From a virus: a stretch of DNA of 64,000 nucleotides. Positions 5,506 through 42,357 of the stretch are shown here, piece by piece. The notes beneath the pieces are model-generated. The model was not told the origin of the DNA. It did not search any database and worked only from the letters and a program-made list of their open reading frames with translations. Positions within the stretch are counted from its first letter, which is position 1; each line of letters starts with the position of its first letter. Where the stretch lies: positions 61,678-125,677 of the IMG/VR virus record IMGVR_UViG_3300046804_002503. The stretch is one strand, 5' to 3'. The translations under genes were made by a program, and so were the position numbers.

Positions 5506-5527
5506 ACGGTAAATATAGTATATTCTA

Positions 5528-6082: not shown

Positions 6083-6083
6083 T

Positions 6084-7049
6084 CTAAACATATAAAGATT
6101 TTAATATAAAATCATAAGGTATTTCGTTTGTTCCTTCTTTAACAGCCCATTCATTGAAATCTTTATATGGACTGTTAGTCGGCCAACGGAATACCTTTTG
6201 TTTTGCCTGTATTAACTCTAAAATTTTATCTTTAGAAGCTTGATCTTTCTGTGGATTGTCTAAAACCCATATCTTTTCATGAAAGGTGAACTCTGATAAT
6301 TGTTTTTTCTGAGTATCATTCATAGTTAGTCCAGCTAAGCATACACCGTTTTTTACAAACATCGCGTCTATCGGGCCTTCAAATATAAAAATATAATCTA
6401 AATTGGTATCTATTCTTTCTAAACCAAAACAAGTCTTGTCATATCCAATTTTATTAAGATAACGAGGTTCTGAACCATCTAATGCTCTGGTTTGATAGAA
6501 TAAAATTTTACGATCTCTGCTCAAATAAGGTATACATAAACGGTTTTTATGAAAGTGATCTGTTAAACTAATATAATAAGAAGAACTTCTATTAATTGCT
6601 GTGTCTAATTTTCTTTCTTTTAGATAATCTAAAGCTTGGATGTAATAAGGGTTATTCTTGTAATGCTGATATTGTTGATTATCTAGAAGATTTATTGAAT
6701 CGTAAGGAAGGAGCGGCTTCTCTTTTTTGTTATTCTTGCCAAAAGAATTCATTTGTCTAGACAGATCAAAACCACTCTCCTTGTTTTGAATCTCTAATTC
6801 TATTTCTTGTCTAGTTAAACCACTGGAAGCTTGAATCCAACTCAAAGCATTCCATGATTTAGAACAATTAAAACAATAAAAAGTATTAGTAGATGGATAA
6901 AAAAAGAGTCTTTTCTTTTTCAACCAACTTCTACCTTCTCTGCAAATGTTGCAAGAAGCATTATATGTACCGTCAAATTTACGAAAAACCGGTTCTCCGG
7001 CATATGTATAAAATTTGCTTAATACATACTGACCTGGTAACTGCCTCAT
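6084..7049 (-). CDS. 61: DNA primase (gp61-like)
   Basis: A 321-residue protein with an N-terminal zinc-binding domain, C33-x2-C36 and C59-x2-C62, within a stretch that would recognise the priming site. The central-to-C-terminal TOPRIM fold shows 'FIFEGPIDAM' (catalytic Glu at about 224) and 'WVLDN' (Asp at about 264). It would make short RNA primers for lagging-strand synthesis with helicase gp41, encoded at 38146-39531. Length is close to T4 gp61. It is separated from the gp41 region, on the opposite strand. Confidence 0.85.
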   Translation of the reverse strand: MRQLPGQYVLSKFYTYAGEPVFRKFDGTYNASCNICREGRSWLKKKRLFFYPSTNTFYCFNCSKSWNALSWIQASSGLTRQEIELEIQNKESGFDLSRQMNSFGKNNKKEKPLLPYDSINLLDNQQYQHYKNNPYYIQALDYLKERKLDTAINRSSSYYISLTDHFHKNRLCIPYLSRDRKILFYQTRALDGSEPRYLNKIGYDKTCFGLERIDTNLDYIFIFEGPIDAMFVKNGVCLAGLTMNDTQKKQLSEFTFHEKIWVLDNPQKDQASKDKILELIQAKQKVFRWPTNSPYKDFNEWAVKEGTNEIPYDFILKSLYV

Positions 7050-11762: not shown

Positions 11763-12356
11763 TCAATCTAAGATCAAAGCTTCAAACTCTTCAGGTGTTT
11801 TAAGGTTTAATACTTCTTTTCTATTATTGTTCAGAAAACTATACGACAAAACACTGTCTTCTAGATTACAAGAAAAGGTGGATTTCTTTTTTTGAATTAC
11901 TCCACATCCGTGATCAACATTTACTACAAATCCTTCATAATCTTTTTGATTTTTGCGAAATTTGTACACACTTTTCCACACTGTACCACACCAATGTGGA
12001 TCTTCTAATGCTTCGGTGTCTGGGCTGCAATCGTGTAAAACTATTGTTCCGTTTTCAGATAAATGTTTAATACAATTAGCCAAATCTCTATCTACTTGTT
12101 CTTCTGTATGAAGGCCATCTATAAAAATAATATCATATTTAACATCAGAACTTAAAGAAGAAAAAAACTCATCTGAGGTTAGTTGATATCCTTTATCTGG
12201 TGGGTTATAAGAACAAGAGCTGACTCCTGGATCTACTCCAGTTTTTTCAGTACAATTTACAGCATTAAAGCAATCTTTGTTAAATATTCCTATTTCTAAA
12301 TAACTAGTATATTTGTATTTATTTATAAGGTCTTGAATAATAGTTATTCTATTCAT
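11763..12356 (-). CDS. Class I SAM-dependent methyltransferase-like protein
   Basis: A 197-residue Rossmann protein of the Methyltransf_24 type: 'YLEIGIFNKDCF' (motif I, about residues 19-30), 'KTGVDPG' (motif II), 'YDIIFIDGLHTEEQV' (motif IV, about 73-88) and 'GTIVLHDCSPD' (about 102-112). Such enzymes often methylate sugars or act beside glycosyltransferases. It sits between the two DUF1501 genes and near sulfotransferase and glycosyltransferase genes, so glycan O-methylation is a reasonable inference. The substrate is unknown. Confidence 0.75.
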   Translation of the reverse strand: MNRITIIQDLINKYKYTSYLEIGIFNKDCFNAVNCTEKTGVDPGVSSCSYNPPDKGYQLTSDEFFSSLSSDVKYDIIFIDGLHTEEQVDRDLANCIKHLSENGTIVLHDCSPDTEALEDPHWCGTVWKSVYKFRKNQKDYEGFVVNVDHGCGVIQKKKSTFSCNLEDSVLSYSFLNNNRKEVLNLKTPEEFEALILD

Positions 12357-12369
12357 GATTTGAGTTAAA

Positions 12370-13641
12370 TTAAGCCAAAAGATCTGTTATAACCTTTCCG
12401 TCTTTAACTATAGCAGAGGGACGCCCACCAGGAGCCATCAAATGTTTATCTGGATCTATGCCTAATTGGGTATACATAGTTGCTGCAAGGTTTTCTACAG
12501 AAACTGGATTCTCTTCTACATCTGCTCCGGTAGCATCTGAAGAACCGTAAATCAATCCTTTCTTAAATCCTCCACCTGCAAATGCTACAGAGAACACTCT
12601 GGGCCAGTGATCGCGGCCTGCATCTTTGTTAATCTTAGGTGTCCTGCCAAACTCAGAGCTAACCATTACAAGAGTAGAATCTAACATTCCTCTTTGCTCT
12701 AAGTCTGTAATCAAAGCTGCATATGCTTGATCAAAAAATGGAAGTTGTTTACTAATTCCGCCAGCGATATTAGTATGCATATCCCAACCTCCATAAGTTA
12801 CGGACACAAATCGTACTCCGGCTTCTACTAATCTGCGGGCCATGAGTAAACGTTGACCAGCTTGGTTCAAGCCGTAAGAATTTTTCATTTTATCGGATTC
12901 TTTTTGCAAATCAAAAGCTTCTCTAGCATGGGGTGAAGAAATCATAGCATAAGCTTTTTGATAAAATTCATCCATAGCAGCTACATTATCATTAGCTTCC
13001 ATGTACTTAAAGTGGCTATCTACTGTATCTAGAATACTTCTTCTTTTTTCAAAGCGAGCTGTATCTATTCCTTCTGGTAAATTTAAATCTCTTACCTTGA
13101 ATTTTTCAGATGCTGGATCAGATCCTAAACTAAAAGGTCCGTAAGCTTTGCTGAGATATCCAGTGTCTGCTGGATCTGAAAGTTTTTGTGGCACACAAAC
13201 ATAAGCCGGCAAACTATTTCTATCTTTAAGTTCATGAGCTACAACTGAACCAAACGAAGGATACTCCAAAGCTGGTGAAGGACGGTATCCTGTAAACATA
13301 GATATAGTACCTCTTTCGTGTGCAGCTTCACCATGAGTCATGGAGCGAACAACGGTTAATTTGTCTGCAATCTTGGCTGTATGTTTAAAATACTCGGAAA
13401 AATGTACTCCAGGAATAGCAGTTTTAACCGTTCCAAGTGGACCCCTATACTCAATAGGAGCATTGGGATGGGGGTCCCAGGTTTCTTGGGCTGCAGCACC
13501 GCCGGGTAAAAAGATATGAATTACCGATTGAGCCTTTGCAGACAAATTTTGGGGGGATTGAGCTTGAAGTTTGAAGTATTCACCCATGGTTAAACCTAAA
13601 CCACCTACAAGCCCACTGTAAATGAAGTCTCGTCTGTTCAT
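12370..13641 (-). CDS. Tat-exported DUF1501 sulfatase-like protein 2
   Basis: A 423-residue paralogue of the DUF1501 protein at 10192-11556. It has a short twin-arginine signal (N-R3-R4-D-F, hydrophobic to about residue 24), 'LPGGAAAQETWDPHPNA', 'MTHGEAAHERG', 'GGWDMHTN', 'SSEFGRTP' and 'GRDHWPRVFSVAFAGGG'. The domain belongs to the alkaline-phosphatase/sulfatase superfamily; the substrate is unknown. The two copies differ strongly, so they are not a recent duplication and may have been gained separately or diverged long ago. GATAAATA lies 6 bases upstream of the start. Confidence 0.85.
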   Translation of the reverse strand: MNRRDFIYSGLVGGLGLTMGEYFKLQAQSPQNLSAKAQSVIHIFLPGGAAAQETWDPHPNAPIEYRGPLGTVKTAIPGVHFSEYFKHTAKIADKLTVVRSMTHGEAAHERGTISMFTGYRPSPALEYPSFGSVVAHELKDRNSLPAYVCVPQKLSDPADTGYLSKAYGPFSLGSDPASEKFKVRDLNLPEGIDTARFEKRRSILDTVDSHFKYMEANDNVAAMDEFYQKAYAMISSPHAREAFDLQKESDKMKNSYGLNQAGQRLLMARRLVEAGVRFVSVTYGGWDMHTNIAGGISKQLPFFDQAYAALITDLEQRGMLDSTLVMVSSEFGRTPKINKDAGRDHWPRVFSVAFAGGGFKKGLIYGSSDATGADVEENPVSVENLAATMYTQLGIDPDKHLMAPGGRPSAIVKDGKVITDLLA

Positions 13642-13645
13642 ATAG

Positions 13646-13930
13646 TTATTTATCGTTTACTTGTAGCAAATAATTAGAACCTACTTCTAACATATTTTTA
13701 AAATATTTCATTACATCCTTGGTAAATTCTATTTGAGCATTGTCTGGAACATGAGAAGTGTATCTTTCATATACTAGATACATCATAGCTGCTACTGTGG
13801 TTGCGTCAAATTCGTGATTTTCTACATCTCTAAAACAAGGTAACCAGACTTCTCCGTCTTGCATTTTAATCAAACCTAATTTACCAACTATTTTTAGACT
13901 TTCTGCGTCTAAATCTTTTTCATTGCTCAT
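13646..13930 (-). CDS. Hypothetical protein, 94 aa
   Basis: I start at the internal ATG at 13928-13930 (MSNEKDLD), which overlaps the sulfotransferase gene by 11 bases. An earlier start would add an artificial hydrophobic stretch encoded in the antisense-like 3' end of that gene. The protein has a beta-rich 'IGLIKMQDGEVWLP' region and a helical C-terminus. It has no recognisable family. It is co-transcribed with the DUF1501 and sulfotransferase genes. Confidence 0.5.
   Translation of the reverse strand: MSNEKDLDAESLKIVGKLGLIKMQDGEVWLPCFRDVENHEFDATTVAAMMYLVYERYTSHVPDNAQIEFTKDVMKYFKNMLEVGSNYLLQVNDK
13647..13654 (-). promoter_or_regulatory. Late promoter-like box GATAAATA
   Basis: The minus strand reads GATAAATA, one base from the T4 late consensus, 5 bases upstream of the second DUF1501 gene and inside the 3' end of the gene before it. 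This parallels the exact box ahead of the first DUF1501 gene and suggests that both are late-expressed. Confidence 0.4.
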
Positions 13931-14744
13931 AATTAAAAAAATCAAAATACCACTTAAAATTATTATAGATAGTATTAGACAAAGATTCACCTAAAATTTC
14001 ATTGTAATAATTAGCAATTGGTAAAACTTCTTTTTTTATAGTGTGTAAATTTCTTATACCAAAAACTTCATCATCTTCAAACGTAATTTGATCTACTAAA
14101 GAAAAATTGTGCTCAAAATTTTCTATCTTTAAAAAATTATAGATATTTTTTAATGTATTTTTAGGATTAGATGTTAAATCCTCAAATTTAATAAACAAAA
14201 TTTTATCTCTAAAGGGTTGATTTATTATGTCAAATATTCGATTAATAGACAATCCAATAGGAGGTTTAGAAAGGTTTTGCTCTACTCTTTTTATTGTAGT
14301 AGTACCTTTTAATTCTAAGTAATTTTTGTTATCTGGATTAAGAATAGAATTTTCTCTTTCTATTTTTTCCATAGAAGCTAGTATGCTTCTTAAATCTCTT
14401 ACCAAACAAATTATCTTCGGATTGGGATAAAATGAATTTAAAAAATTGTAATTTATAGCCCAGCCTCTACTTTTATCTATTACATATTTTTTATTTGTAA
14501 TGGCTCTAAAATAACCTTCTAGACCAGCTTTGCAGAAATTTTTAAATGCTGTAGAGACTGTATTAAAATCTTGGGCTTTAAATTCTATAGACTTAGAAAA
14601 ATTAAGTTGAGCACCGTACAATAATTCTAAAACTCCACTAGTAGGTGTTACATAAAAATTAGGATTTTGACCTAAAATATTTTGCAACAAAGTACTTCCA
14701 GATCGTGGAAGAGAAGAATTAAAGAATATGGTTGGTGTTGTCAT
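13920..14744 (-). CDS. Sulfotransferase
   Basis: A 274-residue protein with the 5'-phosphosulfate loop of PAPS-dependent sulfotransferases (SLPRSGSTLL, residues 11-20) and a 3'-phosphate motif 'VRDLRSILAS' (about 115-124). It would move sulfate from PAPS to a carbohydrate or protein hydroxyl. The gene lies among two methyltransferase-like genes, a GT9-like glycosyltransferase and two exported sulfatase-like DUF1501 genes. This hints at control of sulfated glycans. It overlaps neighbours at both ends, so the genes are tightly coupled. Confidence 0.8.
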   Translation of the reverse strand: MTTPTIFFNSSLPRSGSTLLQNILGQNPNFYVTPTSGVLELLYGAQLNFSKSIEFKAQDFNTVSTAFKNFCKAGLEGYFRAITNKKYVIDKSRGWAINYNFLNSFYPNPKIICLVRDLRSILASMEKIERENSILNPDNKNYLELKGTTTIKRVEQNLSKPPIGLSINRIFDIINQPFRDKILFIKFEDLTSNPKNTLKNIYNFLKIENFEHNFSLVDQITFEDDEVFGIRNLHTIKKEVLPIANYYNEILGESLSNTIYNNFKWYFDFFNYEQ

Positions 14745-19325: not shown

Positions 19326-20001
19326 CACCACTAATTTTAAATCTCAAGATCCAGAAGATGATTTTGAAGAAATTGAGTTTGAAGAAGAGATAGGTGATTT
19401 AGAGGAATTAGCGGGTGAAGAATTCACTGAAACAGAATTAGAGGAAATGGAAGAGGAATTAGATGATGCAGAAATTTTAGAAGAAACAGAAGAGGGCGAA
19501 GATTATGAAGATGAGGAGTATGAAAATTCTATTAAAAAGAAAAAGAAAATTAAAAATAAAAAGAAGGCTGATAAAGATCGATATTATGTTAATCCCTTAG
19601 AGTTTGATAAAGAAATTGGAGATTATTATGAATCTGGACACATGTCTGACAATCTTGCAACCATGATCAGCAATATAGCCAACAAATTAAGTTATGCTCC
19701 CAATTTTATTAACTATACGTTTAGAGAAGAAATGGTGGGAGATGGAATTATTAGAATGTTTAAAGCTTTAACAACTAAAAAGTATGATCACCAAAAAGGA
19801 GCATCAGCTTCTGCAGGTCCTTTCTCATATTTTACTCGCATTGCTTTTAATGCTTTTCGTAATAGAATTAAAAAAGAAAAACACATGAGAGAAACTCACG
19901 AAAAGTATCAAAATGAACTTATGATGTTTTCAGAAAATTATAACACTATTACCAAAAACAACCAACAGCGCATTTCTGTTAATCCCAATTCTTTTTATTA
20001 A
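19294..20001 (+). CDS. 55: Late sigma factor gp55 with acidic N-terminal extension
   Basis: A 235-residue protein. Residues about 100-235 match T4 gp55: 'MISNIANKLSYAPNF', 'FREEMVGDGIIRMFKALTT', 'YFTRIAFNAFRNRIKKEKH'. gp55 is a minimal sigma-2-like factor that directs host RNA polymerase to TATAAATA late promoters together with gp33 and clamp gp45. Residues about 17-80 form a Glu/Asp-rich tract followed by a Lys-rich tract (about 81-95), absent from T4 gp55. The last residues ('NPNSFY') could be the clamp-contact hydrophobic tail. The start at 19294 is required to include the overlap with uvsW. Confidence 0.85.
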   Translation: MNTSKKKSTRNTTNFKSQDPEDDFEEIEFEEEIGDLEELAGEEFTETELEEMEEELDDAEILEETEEGEDYEDEEYENSIKKKKKIKNKKKADKDRYYVNPLEFDKEIGDYYESGHMSDNLATMISNIANKLSYAPNFINYTFREEMVGDGIIRMFKALTTKKYDHQKGASASAGPFSYFTRIAFNAFRNRIKKEKHMRETHEKYQNELMMFSENYNTITKNNQQRISVNPNSFY

Positions 20002-21068
20002 TGAATAAAATTCAAATTAAAGGTCCTAAAGTAGGTTTATTTTCTGACATTCATATAGGTCTAGGTCAAGACAGCTCTATATGGCACAAAAATATATTAG
20101 AATTTGCAGACTGGGTTGTAGATTTTTATGAAAAAAGAGGTATTTCAGAAATTTTAATACCCGGTGATATATTTCACAATCGTAATGAAATATCAGTTAA
20201 CACTTTAAGTGTAGCTCAAAGTTTTTTTAAAAAATTTGAAGGATTTAAACTTTACATTTCTACTGGTAATCACGATTGTTACTACAAGGACCGCACAGAC
20301 ATAAATTCTATTTCTATGTTGGGTGGTTGGGATAACATAGTATTAGTAGATAAACAGCCTCAAGTCTTTTCTATTTTTAACTCAGATAAGACTTTATCCA
20401 TGATTCCGTGGGGTGTAGATATACCGAACATTCCTCAATCAGACATTTGTGTAGGACATTTTGAAATAACATCTTTTAAAATGAATTCTTTTAAAGTGTG
20501 CGATCATGGTTGGGAATCTACAGACATCTTAAGCAAATCACCTTTCATTATTACCGGACACTTCCACACTCCTTGTCTTAGGAATTATAGTAAAGGAAAA
20601 ATATTATACCTTGGAAGTCCCTATCAACAAAACTTTGGTGATGCAGGTGATACTAGAGGAGTGTATATTTTAAATCTACTAAATGATGAAACAGAATTTA
20701 TAGAAAACAACATTTCTCCTACCCATCAAAAAATACTTTTAAGTTCTTTGTTAAATGGTGAGGTGTCTACAACTACCCTTAAAAGTATTATTCCTAATAA
20801 TATGGTTAGTTTGGTAATCGATTCTAATTTAGAACCGTCTAAATTATCTTTATTATCGGCTAAAATTCAAAAATTGAATCCGAAATTTTTTAGAACAGAC
20901 TATCAAAACACTGATCAAACTTTAAATTTATCTACAAGTGGTACCAGTCAATATGATTCTATAGATATACCTCAAAATATTAATGATTTTGTAGAAGCTT
21001 TGGATATTTTACACAAAAATGAAACGTGCCTTTACTTAAATGAGCTTTATCATAAATTAGCTATATGA
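20001..21068 (+). CDS. 47: Recombination nuclease subunit gp47 (SbcD/Mre11-like)
   Basis: A 355-residue calcineurin-like phosphoesterase. Metal ligands lie in SDIHIG (D16, H18), GDIF (D56), GNHD (N90-H91-D92) and 'ITGHFHT' (about 185-191). With gp46 it forms the MR complex that resects DNA ends for recombination. The length fits T4 gp47 (339). Unlike the T4 order, its partner gp46 does not follow directly; a nine-gene glycosyltransferase set separates them. One base shares the gp55 stop. Confidence 0.92.
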   Translation: MNKIQIKGPKVGLFSDIHIGLGQDSSIWHKNILEFADWVVDFYEKRGISEILIPGDIFHNRNEISVNTLSVAQSFFKKFEGFKLYISTGNHDCYYKDRTDINSISMLGGWDNIVLVDKQPQVFSIFNSDKTLSMIPWGVDIPNIPQSDICVGHFEITSFKMNSFKVCDHGWESTDILSKSPFIITGHFHTPCLRNYSKGKILYLGSPYQQNFGDAGDTRGVYILNLLNDETEFIENNISPTHQKILLSSLLNGEVSTTTLKSIIPNNMVSLVIDSNLEPSKLSLLSAKIQKLNPKFFRTDYQNTDQTLNLSTSGTSQYDSIDIPQNINDFVEALDILHKNETCLYLNELYHKLAI

Positions 21069-21811
21069 GTATCGCAATAGGTATTTTAGATAACCACTCC
21101 CAATTAGATTATGACAATTGTTATAATTCTATACCCGAAGCGTTAAGAGATTCTATTTTCACAGTTTCTAGCACTAACAACAAACTTAAAGGTAAAAATT
21201 TTAAATTTACTCGAGAAACCTCTTATGCTGCAATGAGGAATTATGCTCTATCTCAATTTAGAGCCAACCCCGACCTAAAGTATTATTTTCTTATCAATTC
21301 TAATTTAGCTGTAACAGATGTTAATATTTTTAATCATACTATTAATTTGGCTAGTAATTTTGGAACATGGTTCATGACCGGGCCATGTGGCAATGTTCTA
21401 GAGGTAGAAGATGAAGATCATAAATTAACCCTTCAAGTTTCACCAGAATTGAATACTAATTTTTTGTTTATTCATTTTGGAATTATTAAAAATTGTGGTT
21501 ATTTTAACGAACAGTTTTATGAAACAGACATTTTAGATGTTTTAGATTACATTATACGAATGAGAAACAATGGATTGTATTTGCCTCATTTTTATAATCC
21601 TATAGTTAATTTTGGTTTATATAAATCAGAATCTAAAGTTCAAAAAATACCAGCAAGAAATTTAGAAAAGGGTATATCTTTATCTTTTGGACTATTTCAA
21701 CATTTACACGGATATATTCCTGGACATTCAGATCCTAAACCAGTTAGCAAAGAAGATATGTTTGCAGCTTTAGAAAAATTACAAGAAAAATATGCCAGAC
21801 GCGCGCAATAA
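21065..21811 (+). CDS. Glycosyltransferase-like protein 1 (degenerate GT-A)
   Basis: A 248-residue protein with GT-A-like alternation, a 'YAAMRNYALSQFRANPDLKYYFLINSNLAV' region where the usual DxD is replaced by N-S-N, and a C-terminal 'LFQHLHGYIPGH'. The missing acidic pair may mean lost catalysis or a non-canonical donor site. It starts within the gp47 stop codon (ATGA), the first of nine overlapping genes. Acceptor and donor are unknown. Confidence 0.55.
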   Translation: MSIAIGILDNHSQLDYDNCYNSIPEALRDSIFTVSSTNNKLKGKNFKFTRETSYAAMRNYALSQFRANPDLKYYFLINSNLAVTDVNIFNHTINLASNFGTWFMTGPCGNVLEVEDEDHKLTLQVSPELNTNFLFIHFGIIKNCGYFNEQFYETDILDVLDYIIRMRNNGLYLPHFYNPIVNFGLYKSESKVQKIPARNLEKGISLSFGLFQHLHGYIPGHSDPKPVSKEDMFAALEKLQEKYARRAQ

Positions 21812-22589
21812 AATCGGTGTAGGAATTATTACATGTAATAGAGAAGACTTTTTAAAAAAATGTCTAGGTTCTATTCCTGAATATATAGATGAATTAGTCA
21901 TAGTTAATGACGGTAAAGTTTTATCTAAGGAAATAGAAATTCGAGGTTCTTTAATACAAAACCCCACAGGCAAACAAGTAGGAAAATGTAAAAATTTAGC
22001 TATGTCTCATCTCTTAAATAGAGGATGTGATTATATTTTTACATTAGAAGATGATATAATGATTAAAGACCCAGAAACTTTTAATCATTATATAAATGCT
22101 AGTCTAGAAACTGGATTAGAACATTTTAATTTTGGTTTTTCTCAAAAAGAAAATCTTACACCAGATTTAAAACCAGTTTATAGAAAAATAGTCAAATATA
22201 AAAATTGTTCTATTGTATTGACTCCTAATGTTTTAGGGGCTTTAACTTTTTATACCCGTCAAGCATTGCAAACTATTGGATTACATCATTTTAAATTTAA
22301 TAAAGGACACGGTGATCATCCAGAATTAACATACAGGGCTTGGAAACACGGATTTACTACACCTTTTTGGTGGTTTGCAGACATCTACGGCAGCTGGGAC
22401 ATGATAGAAAATCTTTCTAATATGGGATCTGACAGTGTAGTAAGAAACCAAGAAGACATGATGAAAAATTTTTATGAAGCTTGCAACATTTTCAAAGAAC
22501 TTCATGGGGTTCATATGCTAGAGGTACCTCAAGTACCAGAACAAGAAGTAATAACTTTCTTAAAAAATAAAGTTAAAAATGAAAGCTAA
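21792..22589 (+). CDS. Glycosyltransferase 2 (GT2-like)
   Basis: A 265-residue GT-A protein: 'IGVGIITCNREDFLKKCLGSIP' (N-terminal nucleotide-binding strand), 'ELVIVNDG', and 'YIFTLEDDIMI' (about residues 77-87), giving the DD metal pair. Later 'GHGDHPELTYRAWKHGF' resembles the acceptor loop. It overlaps the preceding gene by 20 bases and the next by 11, so the series is translated as a unit. The sugar is not predictable. Confidence 0.75.
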   Translation: MPDARNKIGVGIITCNREDFLKKCLGSIPEYIDELVIVNDGKVLSKEIEIRGSLIQNPTGKQVGKCKNLAMSHLLNRGCDYIFTLEDDIMIKDPETFNHYINASLETGLEHFNFGFSQKENLTPDLKPVYRKIVKYKNCSIVLTPNVLGALTFYTRQALQTIGLHHFKFNKGHGDHPELTYRAWKHGFTTPFWWFADIYGSWDMIENLSNMGSDSVVRNQEDMMKNFYEACNIFKELHGVHMLEVPQVPEQEVITFLKNKVKNES

Positions 22590-23361
22590 AATAGGAGTAG
22601 GTTTATTAACCTATAATAGGCCAGATTATTATAAAAGAGTTTTATTTTCTATACCCAAACAGAAAATAGATCATTTGACTGTAGTTAATGATGGTACTTT
22701 TGAATATGCTTCAACAGATGATGCAGAAACTGTAATTTTAACTAAAAAACAAGCCGGAGTTTCTTTTAGTAAAAATCTTATATTAAAAGATCTTTTAAAA
22801 AAAGGTTGTACTCATCTTTTTTTAATTGAAGATGACAACCTTGTTATTCATCCAGATGTATTTGATGTTTATATTAACACTGCAAATTATTACGGCGTAC
22901 ATCATTTGGCTTACGAAAGATTGACTCGTACAGAAAACACCCTCAAAGCTAGTTATAAAGATCCAAATTCTGAATATGGTTTAGATTTTTTTCATAATGC
23001 AGAGGCTGGATTTACATATATTCATGCTGATTTAGTAAACAAATACGGATTGTTTGATGAAAATTATTTTAATGCCTTTGAACATGTAGATTTTACCTAT
23101 AATTTAGTTAAAAATAAAGTAGCACCTCCCTTTTGGTATTTTCCGGATGTGTTAAACAGTAACTACTATGTTTTAGAAATTCCCAACAGCTTAAACAATT
23201 CTTCTATCACCAATAAACCAGGTTACAATGAAAATGTCAAAAATGGAGCTGAATATTTTATAAAAAAGTGGGGCATTTTTACTAATCAAATTCAAGAACC
23301 CTCCATAGAAGATTTAAAAAATTCCTTAAAATATCTTAAATCTACATATCAAATAAAATGA
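22579..23361 (+). CDS. Glycosyltransferase 3 (GT2-like)
   Basis: A 260-residue paralogue-like partner of the gene before it, with the same opening ('IGVGLLTYNRPDYYKRVLFSIP'), 'LTVVNDG' and 'LFLIEDDNLVI' (about residues 76-86). Shared architecture suggests an old gene duplication. It overlaps the next gene by 4 bases. It probably transfers a nucleotide-activated sugar; whether to a glycan or to DNA is unknown. Confidence 0.75.
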   Translation: MKAKIGVGLLTYNRPDYYKRVLFSIPKQKIDHLTVVNDGTFEYASTDDAETVILTKKQAGVSFSKNLILKDLLKKGCTHLFLIEDDNLVIHPDVFDVYINTANYYGVHHLAYERLTRTENTLKASYKDPNSEYGLDFFHNAEAGFTYIHADLVNKYGLFDENYFNAFEHVDFTYNLVKNKVAPPFWYFPDVLNSNYYVLEIPNSLNNSSITNKPGYNENVKNGAEYFIKKWGIFTNQIQEPSIEDLKNSLKYLKSTYQIK

Positions 23362-24173
23362 AAAAGATTTTATTAACAACTAATACATTCTCTTCTTATA
23401 AAAGACAAGATTTGTCTATAGAAAAAATGTCTTTATTAAAGAATAAAAACCAAAATGTAGAATGTGCTTTAATACAATACAAAAATGAGAAAGTTCCTTA
23501 CAACAAATTAAAGATTTTAGATGTTCTGGACAGGGGTTCTCATACTACCTTAGGAACTAAAAAGTCCCTCCCTTATATCAAAGATTTATTTGATGCTTCT
23601 GCAGAAGCATCTGAAGAGATTTTTGTTTTTAGTAACAGTGATATTACTCTTTCTCAAAAATTAATAGATTATATTAACAATAATGAAATAGAAGCTTTGG
23701 GAGTATCTCGTATAGATATACTAGAAGTAGATAATTTGTCTCAACCTAGTCAAATTATTCGTATGGAACCAGCCGGATTTGATACTTGGATAGTTAATAA
23801 ATCTTGGTGGTTTAAACATAGACATCTTTTTCCTGACATGTTATTAGGTAGGCCAGAGTTTGATGTAGCTTATACAGCTATTATGGATTTAAATTCCATC
23901 AATGTACACGAAAGTACAGAATATCTTACCTACCACTACATGCACGAAATAGTTTCATTTGAAAGAGATGAATGTTATCATTTTAATGTAGATCAAAAAA
24001 ATAATAAACTTAAACCTCTTTTTGATTGGTGGGGCTATATATGCAATAGTACCTATCTAGATAGATCAGATTTTGGACAATTTTTAAATTTTAAGCCCAA
24101 TGAAAAAGACATTATTAAACATTATGTTGCAGAGGCTAAAAACAATTCTAAATTAAAAGAATTTATTTTGTGA
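23358..24173 (+). CDS. Glycosyltransferase-like protein 4
   Basis: A 271-residue protein with an 'FVFSNSDITLS' segment near residues 92-102, a GT-A metal-site position with N-S-D in place of DxD. A 'RMEPAGFDTWIVNKSWWF' stretch follows, as in bacterial and phage GT-A proteins of the DUF6492/GT type. The N-terminal strand 'KKILLTTNTFSSY' fits a Rossmann start. It overlaps both neighbours by 4 bases. Function is inferred from fold and neighbours. Confidence 0.6.
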   Translation: MKKILLTTNTFSSYKRQDLSIEKMSLLKNKNQNVECALIQYKNEKVPYNKLKILDVLDRGSHTTLGTKKSLPYIKDLFDASAEASEEIFVFSNSDITLSQKLIDYINNNEIEALGVSRIDILEVDNLSQPSQIIRMEPAGFDTWIVNKSWWFKHRHLFPDMLLGRPEFDVAYTAIMDLNSINVHESTEYLTYHYMHEIVSFERDECYHFNVDQKNNKLKPLFDWWGYICNSTYLDRSDFGQFLNFKPNEKDIIKHYVAEAKNNSKLKEFIL

Positions 24174-24865
24174 AACCTTCCCTTTGTATAATTTTACCCG
24201 GTAAAATAGGTGATATAGTTATATGTTTACCTATAGCCAAATATTATGCAGATTTGGGTTATGAGGTTATATGGCCAGTCTGGGATTTTTTAATTCAAAA
24301 TTTTACAGATCATATAGACTATGTAAAATTTATACCAGTAAGTTTTAACAAAGGTGTAACAGAAAGCTTAAATCTTGCTAAAGAAAATAATTGGAAAGCT
24401 TTAGATTTATCTTTTACCAATCAAGACTGTTGGCACAATGAAAATACAAAAAAATTTCAGTCTCAATCTAAACCATTTGATGAATTTAGGTATGAATTAG
24501 CTCAAGTAGATTTTTCAGAAAAATGGAAATTAACTTTTAATCGTATTCCAGAAAGAGAACAAAACATTTTAAACTTTTTAAACACAAAAGGCAATTTTTC
24601 TTTAGCTCATTTAGAGGGCTCAGATAGTCGGGCAGATATTTCTTTTAACAATCCTAAGAATTTACCAATATACCACGTTCAACCAATAACTACATCTATT
24701 TTTGATTGGACATTAGCTTTAGAAAAAGCAGATTATCTTATAATGTATGATAGTTGTGTAGCAAATTTAATAGAACAACTTAATTTATCTAATAAAAAAT
24801 TCTTTATCAAAAGATCTCCTCCCAAAGCAACACCCACACTGCGTAACAAATGGACAATACTATAA
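24170..24865 (+). CDS. Glycosyltransferase 5 (GT9-like, GT-B)
   Basis: A 231-residue protein with a GTG start at 24170. The N-terminus 'LCIILPGKIGDIVICLPIAKYY' is the heptosyltransferase (GT9) phosphate-binding loop, followed by 'YEVIWPVWDFL'. The C-terminal 'ALEKADYLIMYDSCVANLI' matches the D-S-x-x-A-N donor site. It is short for a two-domain GT-B enzyme, so it may be a reduced form. It overlaps the next gene by 16 bases. Confidence 0.65.
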   Translation: MKPSLCIILPGKIGDIVICLPIAKYYADLGYEVIWPVWDFLIQNFTDHIDYVKFIPVSFNKGVTESLNLAKENNWKALDLSFTNQDCWHNENTKKFQSQSKPFDEFRYELAQVDFSEKWKLTFNRIPEREQNILNFLNTKGNFSLAHLEGSDSRADISFNNPKNLPIYHVQPITTSIFDWTLALEKADYLIMYDSCVANLIEQLNLSNKKFFIKRSPPKATPTLRNKWTIL

Positions 24866-25641
24866 AAAACATAGCCTTTACAATAGTTTTAAATGGTATG
24901 CCATTTATAAAAAGACAAATGGAAATTATTCCTAAAGTTTTTGATCATTGGTTTATAGTAGAAGGAGTTAGTTTACCAGTTAATTGTACTAGCTGGTGTA
25001 GTTTACCAGATAAAAAATGGTATAATTCAAATTTTTGTAGTACAGATGGTACCTATGAATTTTTAAATTCTATTAACAATCCCAACATTACAATCTTAAG
25101 AAAAAATAATCCTTGGAATGGTAAAATAGAAATGTGTAATGCCTTTATGCCACAGGTATCAAATTCTATTTTAATGGAATTTGATGTTGATGAAATATGG
25201 GATGAAACGGTTCTAAAAGATTTATTATATAATTGTAAATCTAAATTTTATGATTTTGATTCAATGAAATTTAAATGTAATTACTTTGTAGGTGATAATT
25301 TAAAAATAATTACAGAAAATTCTTATGGAGATTATCCGGAAGAATGGGTTCGTTTGTGGACCATATACGAACCGACTCACTTTGTAAGTCATGAACCACC
25401 TAGAATTTTTAAAAAAGAAAATAGAATTGTAGAAAAGAAAACAACATCTAAAAGAGGTTGGATGTTTGATCACTATGCTTACACCACTCCTGAGCAATTA
25501 ATTTTTAAAGAAAATTTTTATAACTATACCAATGCATACAATCAGTGGGTTGATATGCAAAAACAAACTAAATTTCCATGCGAGGTAAATCATTTTTTAA
25601 AGTGGATACCTTCTGGAGTATATGCTGATAAAATATGTTAA
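24850..25641 (+). CDS. Glycosyltransferase-like protein 6 (GT-A, GT2/GT17-like)
   Basis: A 263-residue protein with 'IAFTIVLNGMPFIKRQMEIIP' as the first strand and 'ILMEFDVDEIW' (about residues 112-122), giving the DxD metal motif. Its opening recalls GT17-like and DUF5672-like enzymes that share the 'NG-x-PF' entry. The C-terminus 'FDHYAYTTPEQL' contains the usual His-rich acceptor-side element. It overlaps neighbours by 16 and 7 bases. Confidence 0.65.
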   Translation: MDNTIKNIAFTIVLNGMPFIKRQMEIIPKVFDHWFIVEGVSLPVNCTSWCSLPDKKWYNSNFCSTDGTYEFLNSINNPNITILRKNNPWNGKIEMCNAFMPQVSNSILMEFDVDEIWDETVLKDLLYNCKSKFYDFDSMKFKCNYFVGDNLKIITENSYGDYPEEWVRLWTIYEPTHFVSHEPPRIFKKENRIVEKKTTSKRGWMFDHYAYTTPEQLIFKENFYNYTNAYNQWVDMQKQTKFPCEVNHFLKWIPSGVYADKIC

Positions 25642-26303
25642 ATTTAAACAATGTCACCATAGTTAGCATTAATGGTAGAGACCCAGAGAATTCTGCAAAG
25701 GCTATAAATTTTAGCTGTAGAGAAATTAATTTTGGAGCAAAGTTACTTATTACCAATAGAAATGTTTCTTTTCCGGGTATAGAAACAAAAATAGTAAATG
25801 GTTTAAATTCTTCTGATAGTTACAGTTATTTTTGTGTAAAGGAATTAACAAATTTTATACAAACTGATTACTGTTTAACAGTTCAGCCAGATGGTTATGT
25901 AGTTAATCCCCTTTCTTGGTCTGATTCTTTTTTAGAATATGATTATATCGGTGCACCGTGGCCAGATTTTTTAACATTAGATATAATAAATAAATGCAAT
26001 TTAGTTCCAGCAACCTCTAATTTAAATATAGTAGGTAATGGTGGATTTTCTTTGAGAAGTAAAAAATTTTTAAAAGAATGTTCTCTTTTAGATTATAATG
26101 ATACTTCTATAGAAGAAGACTGTTTTGTGTCTGTATACAAAAGAAGAGAATTAAAAAATAAAAATTTAAAATATTCACCATTTCAAGTGGGTCAACAATT
26201 TTCAATAGAACATTTAATAAATAGTGATTCTCTTTTTATTAAATCTTTTGGATTTCACGGAAAATTAGACCATTTAAAAAATTATTTAAATTTATTACAA
26301 TGA
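25635..26303 (+). CDS. DUF5672-like glycosyltransferase
   Basis: A 222-residue protein with 'YCLTVQPDGYVVNPLSW' (about residues 77-93), 'YDYIGAPWPDF' and 'VGNGGFSLRSKKFL' (about 135-148), the signature of the DUF5672 family of predicted GT-A glycosyltransferases. Metal-binding acids are the 'QPDG' and 'EED' (in 'SIEEDCF'). The donor is unknown. It overlaps neighbours by 7 and 4 bases in the glycosyltransferase run. Confidence 0.75.
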   Translation: MLNLNNVTIVSINGRDPENSAKAINFSCREINFGAKLLITNRNVSFPGIETKIVNGLNSSDSYSYFCVKELTNFIQTDYCLTVQPDGYVVNPLSWSDSFLEYDYIGAPWPDFLTLDIINKCNLVPATSNLNIVGNGGFSLRSKKFLKECSLLDYNDTSIEEDCFVSVYKRRELKNKNLKYSPFQVGQQFSIEHLINSDSLFIKSFGFHGKLDHLKNYLNLLQ

Positions 26304-27130
26304 ATCTTATTTTAGATAAAAGAAAATTAATTCAACAAGAGTCTATCTTAGAATGGCATTATTTTGCTTCTATTTTTAGAGAAATGAGTGATGATTCTTT
26401 TTTTAATGGTATCAATATTTTATTCACTGATAATTTAGAATCTTTACCAGAAAATTTTAATAAAGAAAAATCTATCATTTTTGTTATTTCAGATGAAAGA
26501 TATACACTGCCTCTCTATGCAGATGGTAATGTTTTAATTTTTAAAAACTACGTATTACCAGAGCAAGAAAAATTTAAAGTGTATCCAATACCCATGGGAT
26601 ACAGTTACGGTATAGTGCCTCTGCCTGTTAAAAAAATATCTGAAAGAAAATTTGATATAGGATTTCAGGGTAATTTGCACACATCTAGACCTCACATATT
26701 GAATCATATTATTCAGGAATTAAACAATCGAAACACTGATAGAGCCTATAATGTTTTAATAGCTAATTCTACTAATAGCTTAAAATATTCAGAAAATTTA
26801 AATGACACAAAAATATCTTTAATTTTAGATGGACAAATTACACCTGAGACTTTTAGATTTTTTGAATCAACTTATTTTGGTTGTGTTAACCTAGCAAGTA
26901 AAAACCTACCTAACAATTGGTTATATTCTAACAATGATTATTACAAAGTAGACTGGAATAATCCAAAAGAAATTGTAGATTTAATATCTAATTTATTAAA
27001 TGATTCAGATTTATTATTGCAATCTTCTCTAAATTCTTATAATTCTTGGAAACAAAATTATTCTCCATCTTCTGTAAAAAATTATATTAAAAATTTATAC
27101 CACTATGATATCCACTATTCTACAATATAG
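26300..27130 (+). CDS. Exostosin-like glycosyltransferase (GT-B)
   Basis: A 276-residue protein. The N-terminal half has 'VFVISDERYTLPLYADGNVLIFKNY' style alternating strands; the C-terminal half has 'FDIGFQGNLHTSRPHILN' and 'LILDGQITPETFRFFESTYFGCV' (about residues 175-196). The latter resembles the exostosin/GT47 donor-site helix 'S-x-R-x-x-E-x-x-x-x-G-x-x'. It overlaps the next gene by 26 bases. Activity is inferred from fold only. Confidence 0.6.
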   Translation: MNLILDKRKLIQQESILEWHYFASIFREMSDDSFFNGINILFTDNLESLPENFNKEKSIIFVISDERYTLPLYADGNVLIFKNYVLPEQEKFKVYPIPMGYSYGIVPLPVKKISERKFDIGFQGNLHTSRPHILNHIIQELNNRNTDRAYNVLIANSTNSLKYSENLNDTKISLILDGQITPETFRFFESTYFGCVNLASKNLPNNWLYSNNDYYKVDWNNPKEIVDLISNLLNDSDLLLQSSLNSYNSWKQNYSPSSVKNYIKNLYHYDIHYSTI

Positions 27131-27851
27131 TACTATAGACTTTAGATTTTTAGATGCCAATTTAAAACAATTGTCTAAATTTAGTAATGAAATTATTATA
27201 CCTATTTGTACTCATCTTTTTAATGGTGAAGAAGAAGATTTTAATTTATTGGTAAAAAGTAAAGAAATTATTAAAAAATATCCATTAGCCCGGGTTAAAG
27301 TTTTTGAATGGGAAGGTATTAAAAATAATAAAGGGTATTATCACAATGTCAGCAGAAAATTAGGCACCGACTTATCTCAAAATGAATGGTTATATTTTGT
27401 AGACGGCGATGAAATAACGGATGATAATTTTATCCCGTGGTTTGAAAAAATAAAAAATACAGACTACGGGTTTCAATTGACTTCTTATTGGTATTTTAGA
27501 GAACCTATATACCAAGCAACTAAAACAGAAGCTCAAGGACTTCTTCTTAAGAAAAAATATTGTAATTGGCAGATAAATGTTAGAGAAGAAAGGGACCAAA
27601 TGCATCATTTGCCTAATTTTATCCACGGAGAGAGGCAATTAATTTTTGGTTTAGATGGTAAATCTATGGTACATCACTATTCTTGGGTAAGATCTAAGGA
27701 AGACATGCTTCGTAAAGTTAAAAACTGGGGGCACTGTCATGACCGTGATTGGGTTTCTCAGGTAAATGAAGAGTTTTCTAGACCATTTAATGGTACAGAT
27801 TTTGTACACGGTTACAACTACAACATTGTAGACAATTATTTTAACATTTGA
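27105..27851 (+). CDS. Glycosyltransferase 9 (GT2-like)
   Basis: A 248-residue GT-A protein: 'ISTILQYSTIDFRFLDANLKQL' (entry strand), 'EWLYFVDGDEI' (about residues 94-104, DGD metal motif) and a His/Trp-rich 'HHYSWVRSKEDMLRKVKNWGH' near the C-terminus. It ends the nine-gene glycosyltransferase set. A 30-base gap then precedes gp46, the only intergenic gap in this stretch. The sugar and target are unknown. Confidence 0.75.
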   Translation: MISTILQYSTIDFRFLDANLKQLSKFSNEIIIPICTHLFNGEEEDFNLLVKSKEIIKKYPLARVKVFEWEGIKNNKGYYHNVSRKLGTDLSQNEWLYFVDGDEITDDNFIPWFEKIKNTDYGFQLTSYWYFREPIYQATKTEAQGLLLKKKYCNWQINVREERDQMHHLPNFIHGERQLIFGLDGKSMVHHYSWVRSKEDMLRKVKNWGHCHDRDWVSQVNEEFSRPFNGTDFVHGYNYNIVDNYFNI

Positions 27852-27881: not shown

Positions 27882-29687
27882 GTGAAAAAAGTTTTCTTTA
27901 AAAGAATTTCTGTAACCAATTTTCTTTCTGTAGGAGAAACTCCTTTAATTTTAGATTTCAGGTCTGGAATATCTTTAATTACCGGAGAAAACCGCGATGA
28001 GGGTGGGAGGAATGGAGTTGGTAAAAGCACAGTTGTAGAATCTTTATATTGGTGTTTATTTGGTAACACCATGCGTGAAATTAAAAGAGATCAAATTGTA
28101 CACGATCAATGTGATGGTAGTAGTAATGTGGTATTAGAATTTGATGTAATATCTTCAGATAAAACGGACAGTTATGTTTTATCACGATTTATTAATCCTA
28201 ATAAAGTGTCTCTTACATGTAATGAAGTAGATATTACGCGATCATCCATGCCCAAGACTGATGATCTTATTAAAGAAATTATAGGTGCTACGGAAGAGGT
28301 ATTTCAAAATGCAGTTATTATGTCTGCTAATAATACTCTGCCTTTCATGGCTCAAAAAAAGGTAGACAAACGTAAATTTGTAGAAGGTATTTTGCGTTTG
28401 GGCATTTTTGGTGAAATGCTTTTACAAATTAGATCAGATTATAATGAAAACAAAAAAGCATATGATTTGACTCTTTCTCAATTTTCTGAAAAACAAAAAA
28501 ATTTGTCTGTATTTCAGCAACAGTACGAAAAGACAGAACTTTCTAAAAAGACAAAAATACAACAATTACAAGATAAAATTAAAGGCAATTTTTCTCGCAT
28601 AGAAGAAATATCAAATTATTCTAATGTAGAAGATAATATTAAGAATTTAGATGAAGAAATTTTTAAAAAAGAAAAGGCTATAAAAAAATTAGAAGAACTC
28701 TTAAAAGATTGTGAATCTAAATCAATGTCTTTTTGGAAAGAAAAGCAAGAATTAGAAATACAAATTTCTCAGGTTCAAAAAGAAATTAAATCTTTAGAAA
28801 GTTCACAAGCCTTTTGTCCTCTTTGCAAAAGAGATTATGAAGATTATAACAAATCTCACATAGAATGTGTCACAGAAAAAACTAAGCAAACTGAAAAGGA
28901 TTTAAAAAAATTATTTAAAAAAATAGAAAAAGATTTGTCTGATCAAAGTAAAAGTTGTTCTAAAATTTCAGATACTAAGTCTAAAGTAGAAAAAGAAATT
29001 AAACAAGACATTCAGAAAAAACAATCTTTGGCTTTAATTTCTCAAGAAATTACTCAACTTAAAAATAGAAATTTAGAAATAGAAAAAGAAATACAAGATA
29101 TTTCTGCTATAGATAATGATTTTACACCTCTTATAGAACAAACTAATAAAGAAATAACTTTAATAGAAGAGGAAATAAATAAGCTCAATAAAAAAATTAA
29201 CATTTTAGAATCAGCCAAATATATAGTTTCAGAAGAGGGTGTTAAAACTTTTATTGTCAAGAAAATGTTAAACGTTCTTAACAGTAGGCTTAATTTTTAC
29301 CTTCAAGCAATGGATGCACCGTGTAAGTGTATGTTTAATGAAATGTTTGAAGAAACCATTTATAATAAAAACAATAAAGAATGTTCTTATTTTAATTTTA
29401 GTGGTGGTGAACGCAAACGTATAGATTTGGCTATCTTGTTTATGTTTCAAGATCTATTGAGGAATCAATCTGGAACTTCTTTTTCTTTGAGTATATATGA
29501 TGAACTATTTGATTCTGCTCTAGATGAAAAGGGTGTAGACAAAATATTAACAGTGCTAGCAGAAAGAGTTAAAAAATATGGTGAAAACATTTACATCATC
29601 TCTCACAACAAAGCAGCCATTAAGTCTAATATAGACCAAGTTATTTTACTCCAAAAGTTAAATGGAAAAACAACAATTTTACAGTAA
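27882..29687 (+). CDS. 46: Recombination nuclease subunit gp46 (SbcC/Rad50-like)
   Basis: A 601-residue SMC-like ATPase with a GTG start at 27882. It has Walker A 'GGRNGVGKST' (41-50), coiled coils on either side of a zinc hook C312-P-L-C315, the signature 'FNFSGGERKRIDLA' (about 503-516) and Walker B 'SIYDELFDSALDEKG'. It is the partner of gp47 in DNA-end resection. The length is close to T4 gp46 (560). The queE gene follows 9 bases downstream, so they are probably co-transcribed. Confidence 0.93.
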   Translation: MKKVFFKRISVTNFLSVGETPLILDFRSGISLITGENRDEGGRNGVGKSTVVESLYWCLFGNTMREIKRDQIVHDQCDGSSNVVLEFDVISSDKTDSYVLSRFINPNKVSLTCNEVDITRSSMPKTDDLIKEIIGATEEVFQNAVIMSANNTLPFMAQKKVDKRKFVEGILRLGIFGEMLLQIRSDYNENKKAYDLTLSQFSEKQKNLSVFQQQYEKTELSKKTKIQQLQDKIKGNFSRIEEISNYSNVEDNIKNLDEEIFKKEKAIKKLEELLKDCESKSMSFWKEKQELEIQISQVQKEIKSLESSQAFCPLCKRDYEDYNKSHIECVTEKTKQTEKDLKKLFKKIEKDLSDQSKSCSKISDTKSKVEKEIKQDIQKKQSLALISQEITQLKNRNLEIEKEIQDISAIDNDFTPLIEQTNKEITLIEEEINKLNKKINILESAKYIVSEEGVKTFIVKKMLNVLNSRLNFYLQAMDAPCKCMFNEMFEETIYNKNNKECSYFNFSGGERKRIDLAILFMFQDLLRNQSGTSFSLSIYDELFDSALDEKGVDKILTVLAERVKKYGENIYIISHNKAAIKSNIDQVILLQKLNGKTTILQ

Positions 29688-29696
29688 AATGTTTTT

Positions 29697-30449
29697 ATGT
29701 CAGAAGAAAATTATCTATTAATAAGTGATGATGGTCCGGGATTTCATACAGTAGAGGGAGAGGGAGAGTATATTGGCCATCCAAGTGTATTTATGCGCTT
29801 GTTTGGTTGTAATTTAACCTGTAAAGGTTGGGCTTCTCCAGACTCTCCATGGGGATGTGATTCTTATATTTCATGGTCTAAGAAAAACAAATATACATTT
29901 GACGAAATGTTTAAGTTTTATGAAGAAAATGAATTACATCTTAAACTTAAAAGAGGAGACATCTGGAAGATTACAGGCGGAGAACCCATGTTAAGACAAG
30001 CACCTCTTCTTAAATTTGTAGAAGAATTTGATAAAAGATATGGTTTTATTCCACGTATAGATTTTGAAACCAACGGAACTATTATGCCAGATGAAAAATG
30101 GGTTAAAAAGTATCAAGCTACATTTACTGTATCACCCAAGATGTCTAGCAATGGAGATCCTAAAGAAAGACGCTATATTCCTTATGTATTAAAATGGCAC
30201 GTAGCTCAAAACTCTTGTTTTAAATTTGTAGTTAGAGGAGAAGAAGAAGTTCAAGAATTGTTTGTAGAATATATCAACAATGAAGGTATTAGAATACCCA
30301 AACATCGCATATGGTTAATGGTGATGGCGGGTTCAAGAGCAGAACATGTAGCAAATGCAGAAGCAGTGGCAGAGTTGTGTAAGTTATATGGATTTAAAAT
30401 GTCTCCTCGTTTGCATTTAATGGTTTGGGATAAAGCATTAAAGGTATAA
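29697..30449 (+). CDS. queE: QueE, 7-carboxy-7-deazaguanine synthase
   Basis: A 250-residue radical SAM protein. It opens with 'GPGFHTVEGEGEYIGHPSVF', typical of QueE, then the iron-sulfur cluster loop C38-x3-C42-x11-C54. Here the usual C-x2-C is replaced by a longer insertion, as in QueE variants. 'TGGEPML' (about residues 98-104) is the radical SAM GGE motif. It converts 6-carboxytetrahydropterin to 7-carboxy-7-deazaguanine. It sits between gp46 and a glycosyltransferase, away from queC. Confidence 0.88.
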   Translation: MSEENYLLISDDGPGFHTVEGEGEYIGHPSVFMRLFGCNLTCKGWASPDSPWGCDSYISWSKKNKYTFDEMFKFYEENELHLKLKRGDIWKITGGEPMLRQAPLLKFVEEFDKRYGFIPRIDFETNGTIMPDEKWVKKYQATFTVSPKMSSNGDPKERRYIPYVLKWHVAQNSCFKFVVRGEEEVQELFVEYINNEGIRIPKHRIWLMVMAGSRAEHVANAEAVAELCKLYGFKMSPRLHLMVWDKALKV

Positions 30450-30484: not shown

Positions 30485-31807
30485 ATGGCTCTAAAACTTA
30501 AATCAAAATCTGAATCTAATTCTACAATAGATTTAAACAACAAGGTAGTTTATGAATATAAACCAGTTCAAGCAACTATACCTCATCCTCCAGTTGGAGC
30601 CCCCACATTAGGCAGACCAACCTATTCTTATATTGCTTCAACAGTGGTTAAAGCACCAGCACCTCCACCAGTTGAAATGCAAGAAACATCTTTACCGCGA
30701 GCTTTAAATTATTACGCTGATTATGGTGGTTGTGGATTTTGGCGTATGGTCTGGCCAGAGACTGCTGTAAATTCCTATCAAAAAGGTTGTATTTCTGGAT
30801 TAACTAGTATGGTTTTAGATTTAAGGTTTTATCAAAACCTTAAAAGCATACGCATGCAACGCCAAGCTACCCCGGTACAAGCAATGTTTATCAAAGAATT
30901 ACATAAACACAAAGATTCTTTGGGGTATCAATTAATTTATGAAATAGATGACATTGTATTCCGTAATGATATTCCAGACTACAATAGATGTAAGGAGTCT
31001 TTTGCATCAGAAGAAACTGAAAAAACTATTTTAGAAATTATGTCTTTAATGGATGAGATTACAGTTACTTGTCCGTACATGAAACAATACTACCAAGAAA
31101 AGACTGGTAACAAAAGAGTCACTATTATTCCAAATTATCCGCCAAAATATTGGTTAGGACGTTTTTATAACCGTCAACGTCTAATAGACAACTTTGAAAA
31201 GTATAAAAAGAAGCCGCGCATTTTATATGCTGGATCAGGAACACATATTGATGTTGCAAATAAAACAAATTTAAAAGATGATTTTGCTCATGTTGTAAAA
31301 GAAATTATTGCAGCTAGAAAAAAATTTAAATTTATTTGGAAAGGTACCTATCCGTTAGAAATTAAACCATTTATTGATAACGGAGAAATGGAATATATAG
31401 ACTGGTCTCCACTATACGACCTTCCGCAATCTGTATACGACTCAAATTGCAATGCGGTATATGCTCCTTTGCAAGACAATGTATTTAACAAATCTAAAAG
31501 CAATATTAAAATGGTAGAGGCTGGAGCTTTTGGCTATCCAGGAACCTTCCAAGATCTCTGCACATATGAGGGAGCTGATTTAAAATTTGGTAACGGATCA
31601 GAACTCATTGCTCAACTAGAACATATTACTTCAGATATAGATACCTATATGAAGTATTCAGACAATATTCATAAATTCACAAACGGCTTGTGGTTAGAAG
31701 ATCATTTAAATGAGTACGAAGCAGTGTATTTTACTAAATGGGGATCTAAAGAACGAAATTTAAAAAGTCCGGGCTTGATTTCCCTTAATTTAGACCAGAA
31801 AATATAG
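30485..31807 (+). CDS. Phage GT-B glycosyltransferase (GT4-like)
   Basis: A 440-residue protein with a Pro-rich N-terminal extension (about residues 28-65), then a GT-B fold: 'YQLIYEIDDIVF' (about 152-163), 'ITVTCPYMKQYYQEKTG', 'VTIIPNYPPKYWL', 'PRILYAGSGTHID' and a donor site 'FNKSKSNIKMVEAGAFGYP'. Similar proteins occur in T4-like marine phages near polymerase genes. The gene is 3 bases from gp43, so it is linked to replication. DNA or virion glycosylation is plausible; neither is shown. Confidence 0.8.
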   Translation: MALKLKSKSESNSTIDLNNKVVYEYKPVQATIPHPPVGAPTLGRPTYSYIASTVVKAPAPPPVEMQETSLPRALNYYADYGGCGFWRMVWPETAVNSYQKGCISGLTSMVLDLRFYQNLKSIRMQRQATPVQAMFIKELHKHKDSLGYQLIYEIDDIVFRNDIPDYNRCKESFASEETEKTILEIMSLMDEITVTCPYMKQYYQEKTGNKRVTIIPNYPPKYWLGRFYNRQRLIDNFEKYKKKPRILYAGSGTHIDVANKTNLKDDFAHVVKEIIAARKKFKFIWKGTYPLEIKPFIDNGEMEYIDWSPLYDLPQSVYDSNCNAVYAPLQDNVFNKSKSNIKMVEAGAFGYPGTFQDLCTYEGADLKFGNGSELIAQLEHITSDIDTYMKYSDNIHKFTNGLWLEDHLNEYEAVYFTKWGSKERNLKSPGLISLNLDQKI

Positions 31808-42302: not shown

Positions 42303-42307
42303 TTTTA

Positions 42308-42336
42308 TTAGCAATCTAAAAAACTTACTCTATAAT
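42308..42336 (+). promoter_or_regulatory. Putative sigma70-like promoter upstream of folE2
   Basis: TTAGCA (42308-42313), a 17-base spacer and TATAAT (42331-42336) occupy the gap between gp32 and folE2, 21 bases before the folE2 start. A separate promoter fits the need for early synthesis of the deazaguanine precursor. Confidence 0.45.
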
Positions 42337-42357
42337 AAAAACCAACCATCAAATAAT

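Follow-up and report, generated by a model that had tools for sequence, protein, structure and literature searches.

Variable islands rich in glycosyltransferases are already known in T4-like phages. The hypervariable islands of pelagimyophages and cyanomyophages combine glycosyltransferases with other sugar enzymes (PMC7029224), and the sugar-gene sets of aquatic T4-like phages have so far been read as host lipopolysaccharide (LPS) genes without test. Mycobacteriophages carry small adjacent glycosyltransferase sets for virion glycosylation (gp108-110 of Che8 and a candidate set, gp35-38, of Corndog), and PMC11256854 and PMC12619734 cite other work on glycans attached to the capsids and tail tubes of mycobacteriophages. 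The PBCV-1 capsid is glycosylated by mostly soluble, early, virus-encoded glycosyltransferases, which produce a conserved core glycan with virus-specific decorations (PMC5408694). Here, we describe a set of nine genes, most of them glycosyltransferase-like, between gp47 and gp46 in a virus record of 125,677 bases (IMGVR_UViG_3300046804_002503). The window, that is, the whole stretch of DNA analyzed, comprises 64,000 nucleotides (nt) at positions 61678-125677 of that record, and coordinates are window positions unless marked as genome or L-locus positions. The virus is a deep branch of the T4-like phages, since uvsW, gp55, gp47, gp46, DNA polymerase, gp23, portal, and terminase match those of pelagiphage Mosig EXVC030M (Kyanoviridae) at only 21 to 45% identity.

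The island occupies positions 21065-27851 and consists of nine open reading frames (ORFs; G1 to G9) of 222 to 276 amino acids each, all on the plus strand. Its left anchor is gp47 (20001..21068, +), the SbcD-like recombination nuclease subunit (tblastn against annotated T4-like gp47, E values of 1e-18 to 8e-24), and its right anchor is gp46 (27882..29687, +), the SbcC-like subunit (tblastn against T4-like gp46, 1e-31 to 4e-39). Each gene overlaps the next, by 4 nt at gp47/G1, 20 at G1/G2, 11 at G2/G3, 4 at both G3/G4 and G4/G5, 16 at G5/G6, 7 at G6/G7, 4 at G7/G8, and 26 at G8/G9, and a gap of 30 nt leads from the end of G9 to the GTG start of gp46 at 27882. An earlier, sequence-only reading had described nine overlapping genes at this place with overlaps of 4 to 26 nt, which we confirmed exactly, and the island and its neighbors are probably coupled in translation, as a single unit. 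The same block is identical in IMG/VR record 3300043446, possibly the same virus, and is present at 91% nt identity in IMG/VR record 3300034200, which comes from an independent metagenome. Compared with the latter, all nine genes are open and have ratios of nonsynonymous to synonymous substitution rates (dN/dS) of 0.026 to 0.099, indicating strong purifying selection, with a value of 0.048 for G1 despite its missing DxD motif. Thus, the nine genes are functional, and, because the block recurs in both records without stops and with low dN/dS, it is the product of neither chance nor assembly error. A mosaic junction near gp55 was considered and rejected: the ungapped identity to the independent record was 29% upstream of 19575, but gapped blastn gave 91% over 13 kilobases (kb), which points to a small indel, and the low gp55 identity in the ungapped comparison is an artifact of the same indel. 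The T4 late promoter TATAAATA had 6 matches, with 12.8 expected, and none inside the island, so the timing of expression is not inferable from it, and scanning the region for promoters and terminators gave insufficient excess over shuffled sequence to be used.

The genes had been assigned to glycosyltransferase-like families (GT2, GT9, DUF5672, and exostosin types), and these assignments stood to different degrees. G2 (21792..22589, +), a core gene, and its paralogue G3 (22579..23361, +) are GT2-like proteins with an EDD motif and firm matches to the glycosyltransferase family phrog_2456 (1.4e-21 and 2.1e-19, respectively); relatives carry a version of G3 of ~490 amino acids. G1 (21065..21811, +), the first gene of the island, had no usable Pfam match and was placed as a GT-A paralogue of G2 by a full-length hhalign alignment to the G2 family (100%, 1e-44), a score that is helped somewhat by the presence of G1 as 1 of the 17 rows of that alignment. 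G1 orthologues also matched single G2 and G3 relatives in profile searches, and the AlphaFold model of G1 (predicted local distance difference test [pLDDT] of 90.3) has a GT-A fold with matches to glycosyltransferases in the PDB (best E value, 4e-8). G5 (24170..24865, +) had no usable Pfam or other sequence match, and its fold was recognized from an AlphaFold model (pLDDT of 85), for which the top Foldseek matches were GT9 enzymes and heptosyltransferases (GT9 3tov, 8e-6; WaaC, 2e-5; the protein heptosyltransferase TibC, 6e-5). It is predicted to be a short GT-B enzyme of the GT9 (heptosyltransferase) fold, with 231 amino acids versus 315 to 348 residues in the top GT9 matches. PDB profile searches with G1, G4, and G5 gave no match, and the fold calls for G1 and G5 rest on the predicted structures. 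G7 (25635..26303, +) is a DUF5672 protein (Pfam, 1.6e-19), a family labeled by Pfam as being of unknown function, and is glycosyltransferase-like by its motif in the alignment. Three genes stayed below the cutoffs: G6 (24850..25641, +), a probable GT2 enzyme with a DVD motif (Pfam Glycos_transf_2, 1.2e-4, 22.5 bits against a cutoff of 23.3); G8 (26300..27130, +), which weakly resembles exostosin (GT47; 3.3e-4, 20.5 bits against 33.4) and also occurs in two further records of this virus type; and G9 (27105..27851, +), which is weakly GT2-like by its DGDE motif (Pfam, 0.06). G4 (23358..24173, +), a conserved island family in an alignment of eight relatives, is GT-A-like only by its NSD motif; it had no usable Pfam match and no PDB match, and hhalign did not link it to the G2 family (just 4.6%). 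Overall, all nine proteins are likely to be glycosyltransferases, an identity that is well supported for G1, G2, G3, and G5, that is, for several members and not for each.

Two members had also been said to lack DxD. By our alignments, a usable DxD is missing in G1, G5, and G8, while G4 (NSD) and G7 (QPDG) have single-acid variants of the motif. GT-B enzymes do not require DxD, and its absence is therefore expected in G5 (GT9 fold) and G8 (GT47-like), so that the statement was right for G1 and misleading for the others. G1 has NSN at the position of the EDD of G2, none of its true orthologues has DxD there, and two carboxylates further along, E149 and D161, are invariant. Judged on the model and the alignment, G1 represents the one real DxD loss, from EDD to NSN within a GT-A fold.

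To see how this locus compares with relatives, the 47/46 interval was surveyed in 55 rows with both genes placed, some of them from overlapping records. Three loci (L022, L083, and L084) have no gene in the gap, which is 9 to 45 nt long, 26 loci have exactly one gene of ~255 amino acids, mostly G2-like, and the remaining multigene relatives have 4 to 12 genes. The claim that gp47 and gp46 are normally neighbors holds only approximately, since Kyanoviridae relatives already have one small, unrelated gene at the junction (Mosig EXVC030M has a 2OG-Fe(II) oxygenase there, and P-TIM40 has a hypothetical ORF). The gp47 tree unites the one-gene phages in a single supported group (100/99) and places the window inside a supported multigene group (99/100). 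The gene-less L022 is nested in the multigene group, which suggests loss of the island, with the caveat that the L022 contig is short and its branch is long. The islands of relatives contain GT2, GT7, GT25, GT47, GT4, and DUF5672 proteins as well as FkbM and other methyltransferases and GDP-mannose 4,6-dehydratase/epimerase. We also looked for the same cluster fixed outside the 46/47 interval in relatives, and the placements of G1, GT9, and G6 relatives favored the slot: the full G1 profile matched each core-clade record once, in every case directly behind gp47, GT9 profile matches were confined to islands, and the distant phages L122 and L123 kept G5 and G6 adjacent just downstream of gp47. 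In this lineage, sugar genes therefore have a fixed slot at the 47/46 junction, and the view of a coupled glycosyltransferase-like set inserted there is supported.

The island is real and changes fast, and it does so with a clear polarity. The 156 island proteins of 29 loci fell into 61 clusters; the gp47-proximal core, G1-G2-(G3)-(G4), is conserved and collinear, whereas the gp46-proximal part turns over. G1 is present in all 13 core-clade islands, as the first gene in 12 and as the second in L091, and is always followed by a G2-family gene; G3 and G4 come next in many islands, and the genes beyond them are phage specific. Reciprocal best hits were collinear in 35 of the 37 multigene comparisons. 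In one pair of loci (L054 and L067), gp47 is 79% identical, yet only one of nine island genes, the first, is common to both. From this pattern, we infer that a glycan-pathway island is swapped by recombination between conserved flanks, mostly on the gp46 side.

As to what the island does, we tentatively favor a polarized, horizontally exchanged glycan-synthesis island that would act on virion proteins, by analogy with chlorovirus capsids and mycobacteriophage virions. The glycan would be assembled stepwise: the gp47-proximal core (G1, G2, and often G3 and G4) would start it on a common acceptor, and the swappable genes on the gp46 side would then attach sugars specific to each phage, with methyl groups or modified sugars as further additions in relatives. 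As a soluble assembly line, the enzymes would work in the cytoplasm from nucleotide sugars, because they have no predicted membrane segment; among the nine proteins, the only hydrophobic stretch resembling a membrane span was a short N-terminal strand of the GT9-like G5. The acceptor would most likely be one or more virion proteins. A Ser/Thr-rich C terminus that could serve as an acceptor was not seen in the major capsid protein. Separately, a structural-region protein at genome positions 118210-119571 (window 56533-57894, -) has a Ser/Thr-rich C terminus and is a possible O-glycan acceptor, as a lead only. A more specific scheme, which we consider unlikely, has G1 as a catalytically dead adaptor that would dock G2 and G3 on a conserved virion acceptor, with the downstream decorators swappable by 47/46 recombination to give a phage-specific particle glycan; a catalytic glycosyltransferase with a chaperone or substrate-binding partner is a possible model for G1 with G2/G3, and a G1-G2 complex would be hypothesized on that analogy.

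The sequence-only reading had named host surface sugar, virion proteins, and modified DNA bases as targets, and the first two are inseparable by sequence, although we lean toward the virion. Several points weigh against that preference: G4 is unplaced by class and the assignments of G6, G8, and G9 are weak; the family profiles of G1, G2, G4, G5, and G7 had no match to the Che8 enzymes, and, with the G2 profile missing them, homology to an enzyme proven to glycosylate virions is not shown; the GT9 fold of G5 fits LPS core synthesis (WaaC) as well; the authors of the pelagimyophage genomes favor host O-chain modification (PMC7029224); and variation between phages is equally expected under superinfection exclusion. 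A serious possibility, which we hold with less confidence, is that the enzymes remodel a host surface glycan (LPS core, O-chain, or capsule) early and block superinfection or readsorption of progeny. This is the role proposed for the pelagimyophage glycosyltransferases, glycan changes are able to block adsorption in the GtrABS case (PMC11990801), and WaaC, with which G5 shares its fold, is an LPS heptosyltransferase. The high gene turnover is in line with competition between phages, and a sulfotransferase, PIG-L, an epimerase, and a GT31 pair elsewhere in the genome suit surface glycan chemistry. However, in contrast to typical Gtr systems, the island contains no membrane-spanning glycosyltransferase; the genes scanned, which did not include every gene, contained neither a flippase nor a polymerase or priming transferase; and a lytic phage would gain little once the cell is committed.

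The third target, phage DNA glycosylated on a hypermodified base as a shield against restriction, is disfavored and very improbable in our view, even though the island sits among DNA recombination genes. The genome also encodes preQ0 functions, so that DNA or tRNA may carry 7-deazaguanine: QueC (4759-5601, -) and a neighboring glutamine amidotransferase (4110-4754, -), which together form a split Gat-QueC-like pair, QueE (29697-30449, +), FolE2 (42265-43200, +), and a DUF366 protein (1836-2408, -). This preQ0/7-deazaguanine set suggests dG+ or a related DNA modification. DNA modification was tested with PF00303, PF12851, PF00145, PF01702, and PF06508. In 23 related records, where several are fragmentary and remote enzymes could be missed, neither a pyrimidine hydroxymethylase of the thymidylate synthase family (PF00303) nor a C5 methylase (PF00145) was matched, and TET/JBP (PF12851) gave one match below the cutoff and nothing above it. 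The PF00303-family or TET/JBP route of phages with glycosylated DNA of the 5-hydroxymethylpyrimidine type was thus not found here, and no TGT/DpdA was found with PF01702. Moreover, queC was not found in island records of 226 kb and 212 kb and is present in an island-less record and in one-gene records; since it does not track the island, DNA glycosylation is unlikely as the common function. It is also improbable, if slightly less so, that the junction is a neutral hotspot between two recombination genes that collects foreign genes with no joint pathway. Unrelated single genes do occupy the slot in Kyanoviridae and the distal genes turn over fast, but the content of the slot is mostly sugar related, the order of the core is kept over deep divergence, the nine genes are under purifying selection, and G5 and G6 reappear as a pair in two distant phages.

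Other sugar and modification genes were found around the island and elsewhere in the genome. Downstream of gp46 lies a glycosyltransferase of 440 amino acids (30485..31807, +; phrog_7162, 2e-23), which may be the older sugar gene of the neighborhood, since island-less L083 and L084 keep a counterpart with 43 to 44% identity. A second small sugar module (2423-4113, -) has a GT2-type glycosyltransferase and a protein of the NAD-dependent epimerase/GDP-mannose dehydratase family, and a third, sugar-like module (L001:7725-13302) has two GT31 galactosyltransferase-like genes, a PIG-L deacetylase, an asparagine-synthase-type amidotransferase, and a radical SAM-SPASM enzyme, with another such enzyme at L001:15289-16491. 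Two DUF1501 proteins (10192-11556, -, and 12370-13641, -; Pfam, 4e-135 and 2e-117), which are unexpected in a T4-like phage, lie next to genes for a methyltransferase (11763-12356) and for a sulfotransferase (13920-14744). The genome yielded no tRNA genes. A genome scan with the G2 family, carried out as a host search, returned just relatives of 29 to 36% identity from mixed taxa, and the bacterial ones sit in mixed sugar-gene contexts. By eye, Pseudomonas relatives of G2/G3 (~33%; L129 and L130 around 6001-6795) lie near flgA/flgM/flgN/ycgR-like genes, and this flagellar-like neighborhood is a hint of protein glycosylation that does not decide the target. In a binned Cyclobacteriaceae sequence (L127), which is probably a binned phage, tail-like genes (by eye) stand beside a G2-like glycosyltransferase and a run of sugar genes.

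In the open-access papers searched, we found no set of glycosyltransferases described for the gp47-gp46 interval, and these papers also appear to contain no description of the 47/46 location, the polarity, the zero/one/many series, or a conserved first paralogue without DxD. The series from no gene to one to a dozen, with its conserved core and DxD-less partner, offers a natural series for the question of particle glycosylation and bears on the purpose of the variable sugars in T4-like phages. Compared with described systems, the island does not follow the scheme of Gtr-type serotype conversion, with its membrane-anchored glycosyltransferase and flippase. It resembles the Che8 and Corndog sets in that phage glycosyltransferase genes are adjacent in a small set, and other mycobacteriophages as well as HK97-like phages have relatives of G2 with ~25% identity, but the gene position differs. 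The likeness to PBCV-1 lies in the working, with soluble viral glycosyltransferases and a conserved core with virus-specific decoration; the host there is eukaryotic, the genes are scattered, and homology of the systems is not shown. The nearest match is to the pelagimyophage islands, which lie in the host-recognition cluster from VrlC to gp14, whereas the island described here is found at the 47/46 junction, can have as many as 12 genes, is polarized, and begins with a conserved DxD-less paralogue, and is thus a variant of those islands and not the same island.

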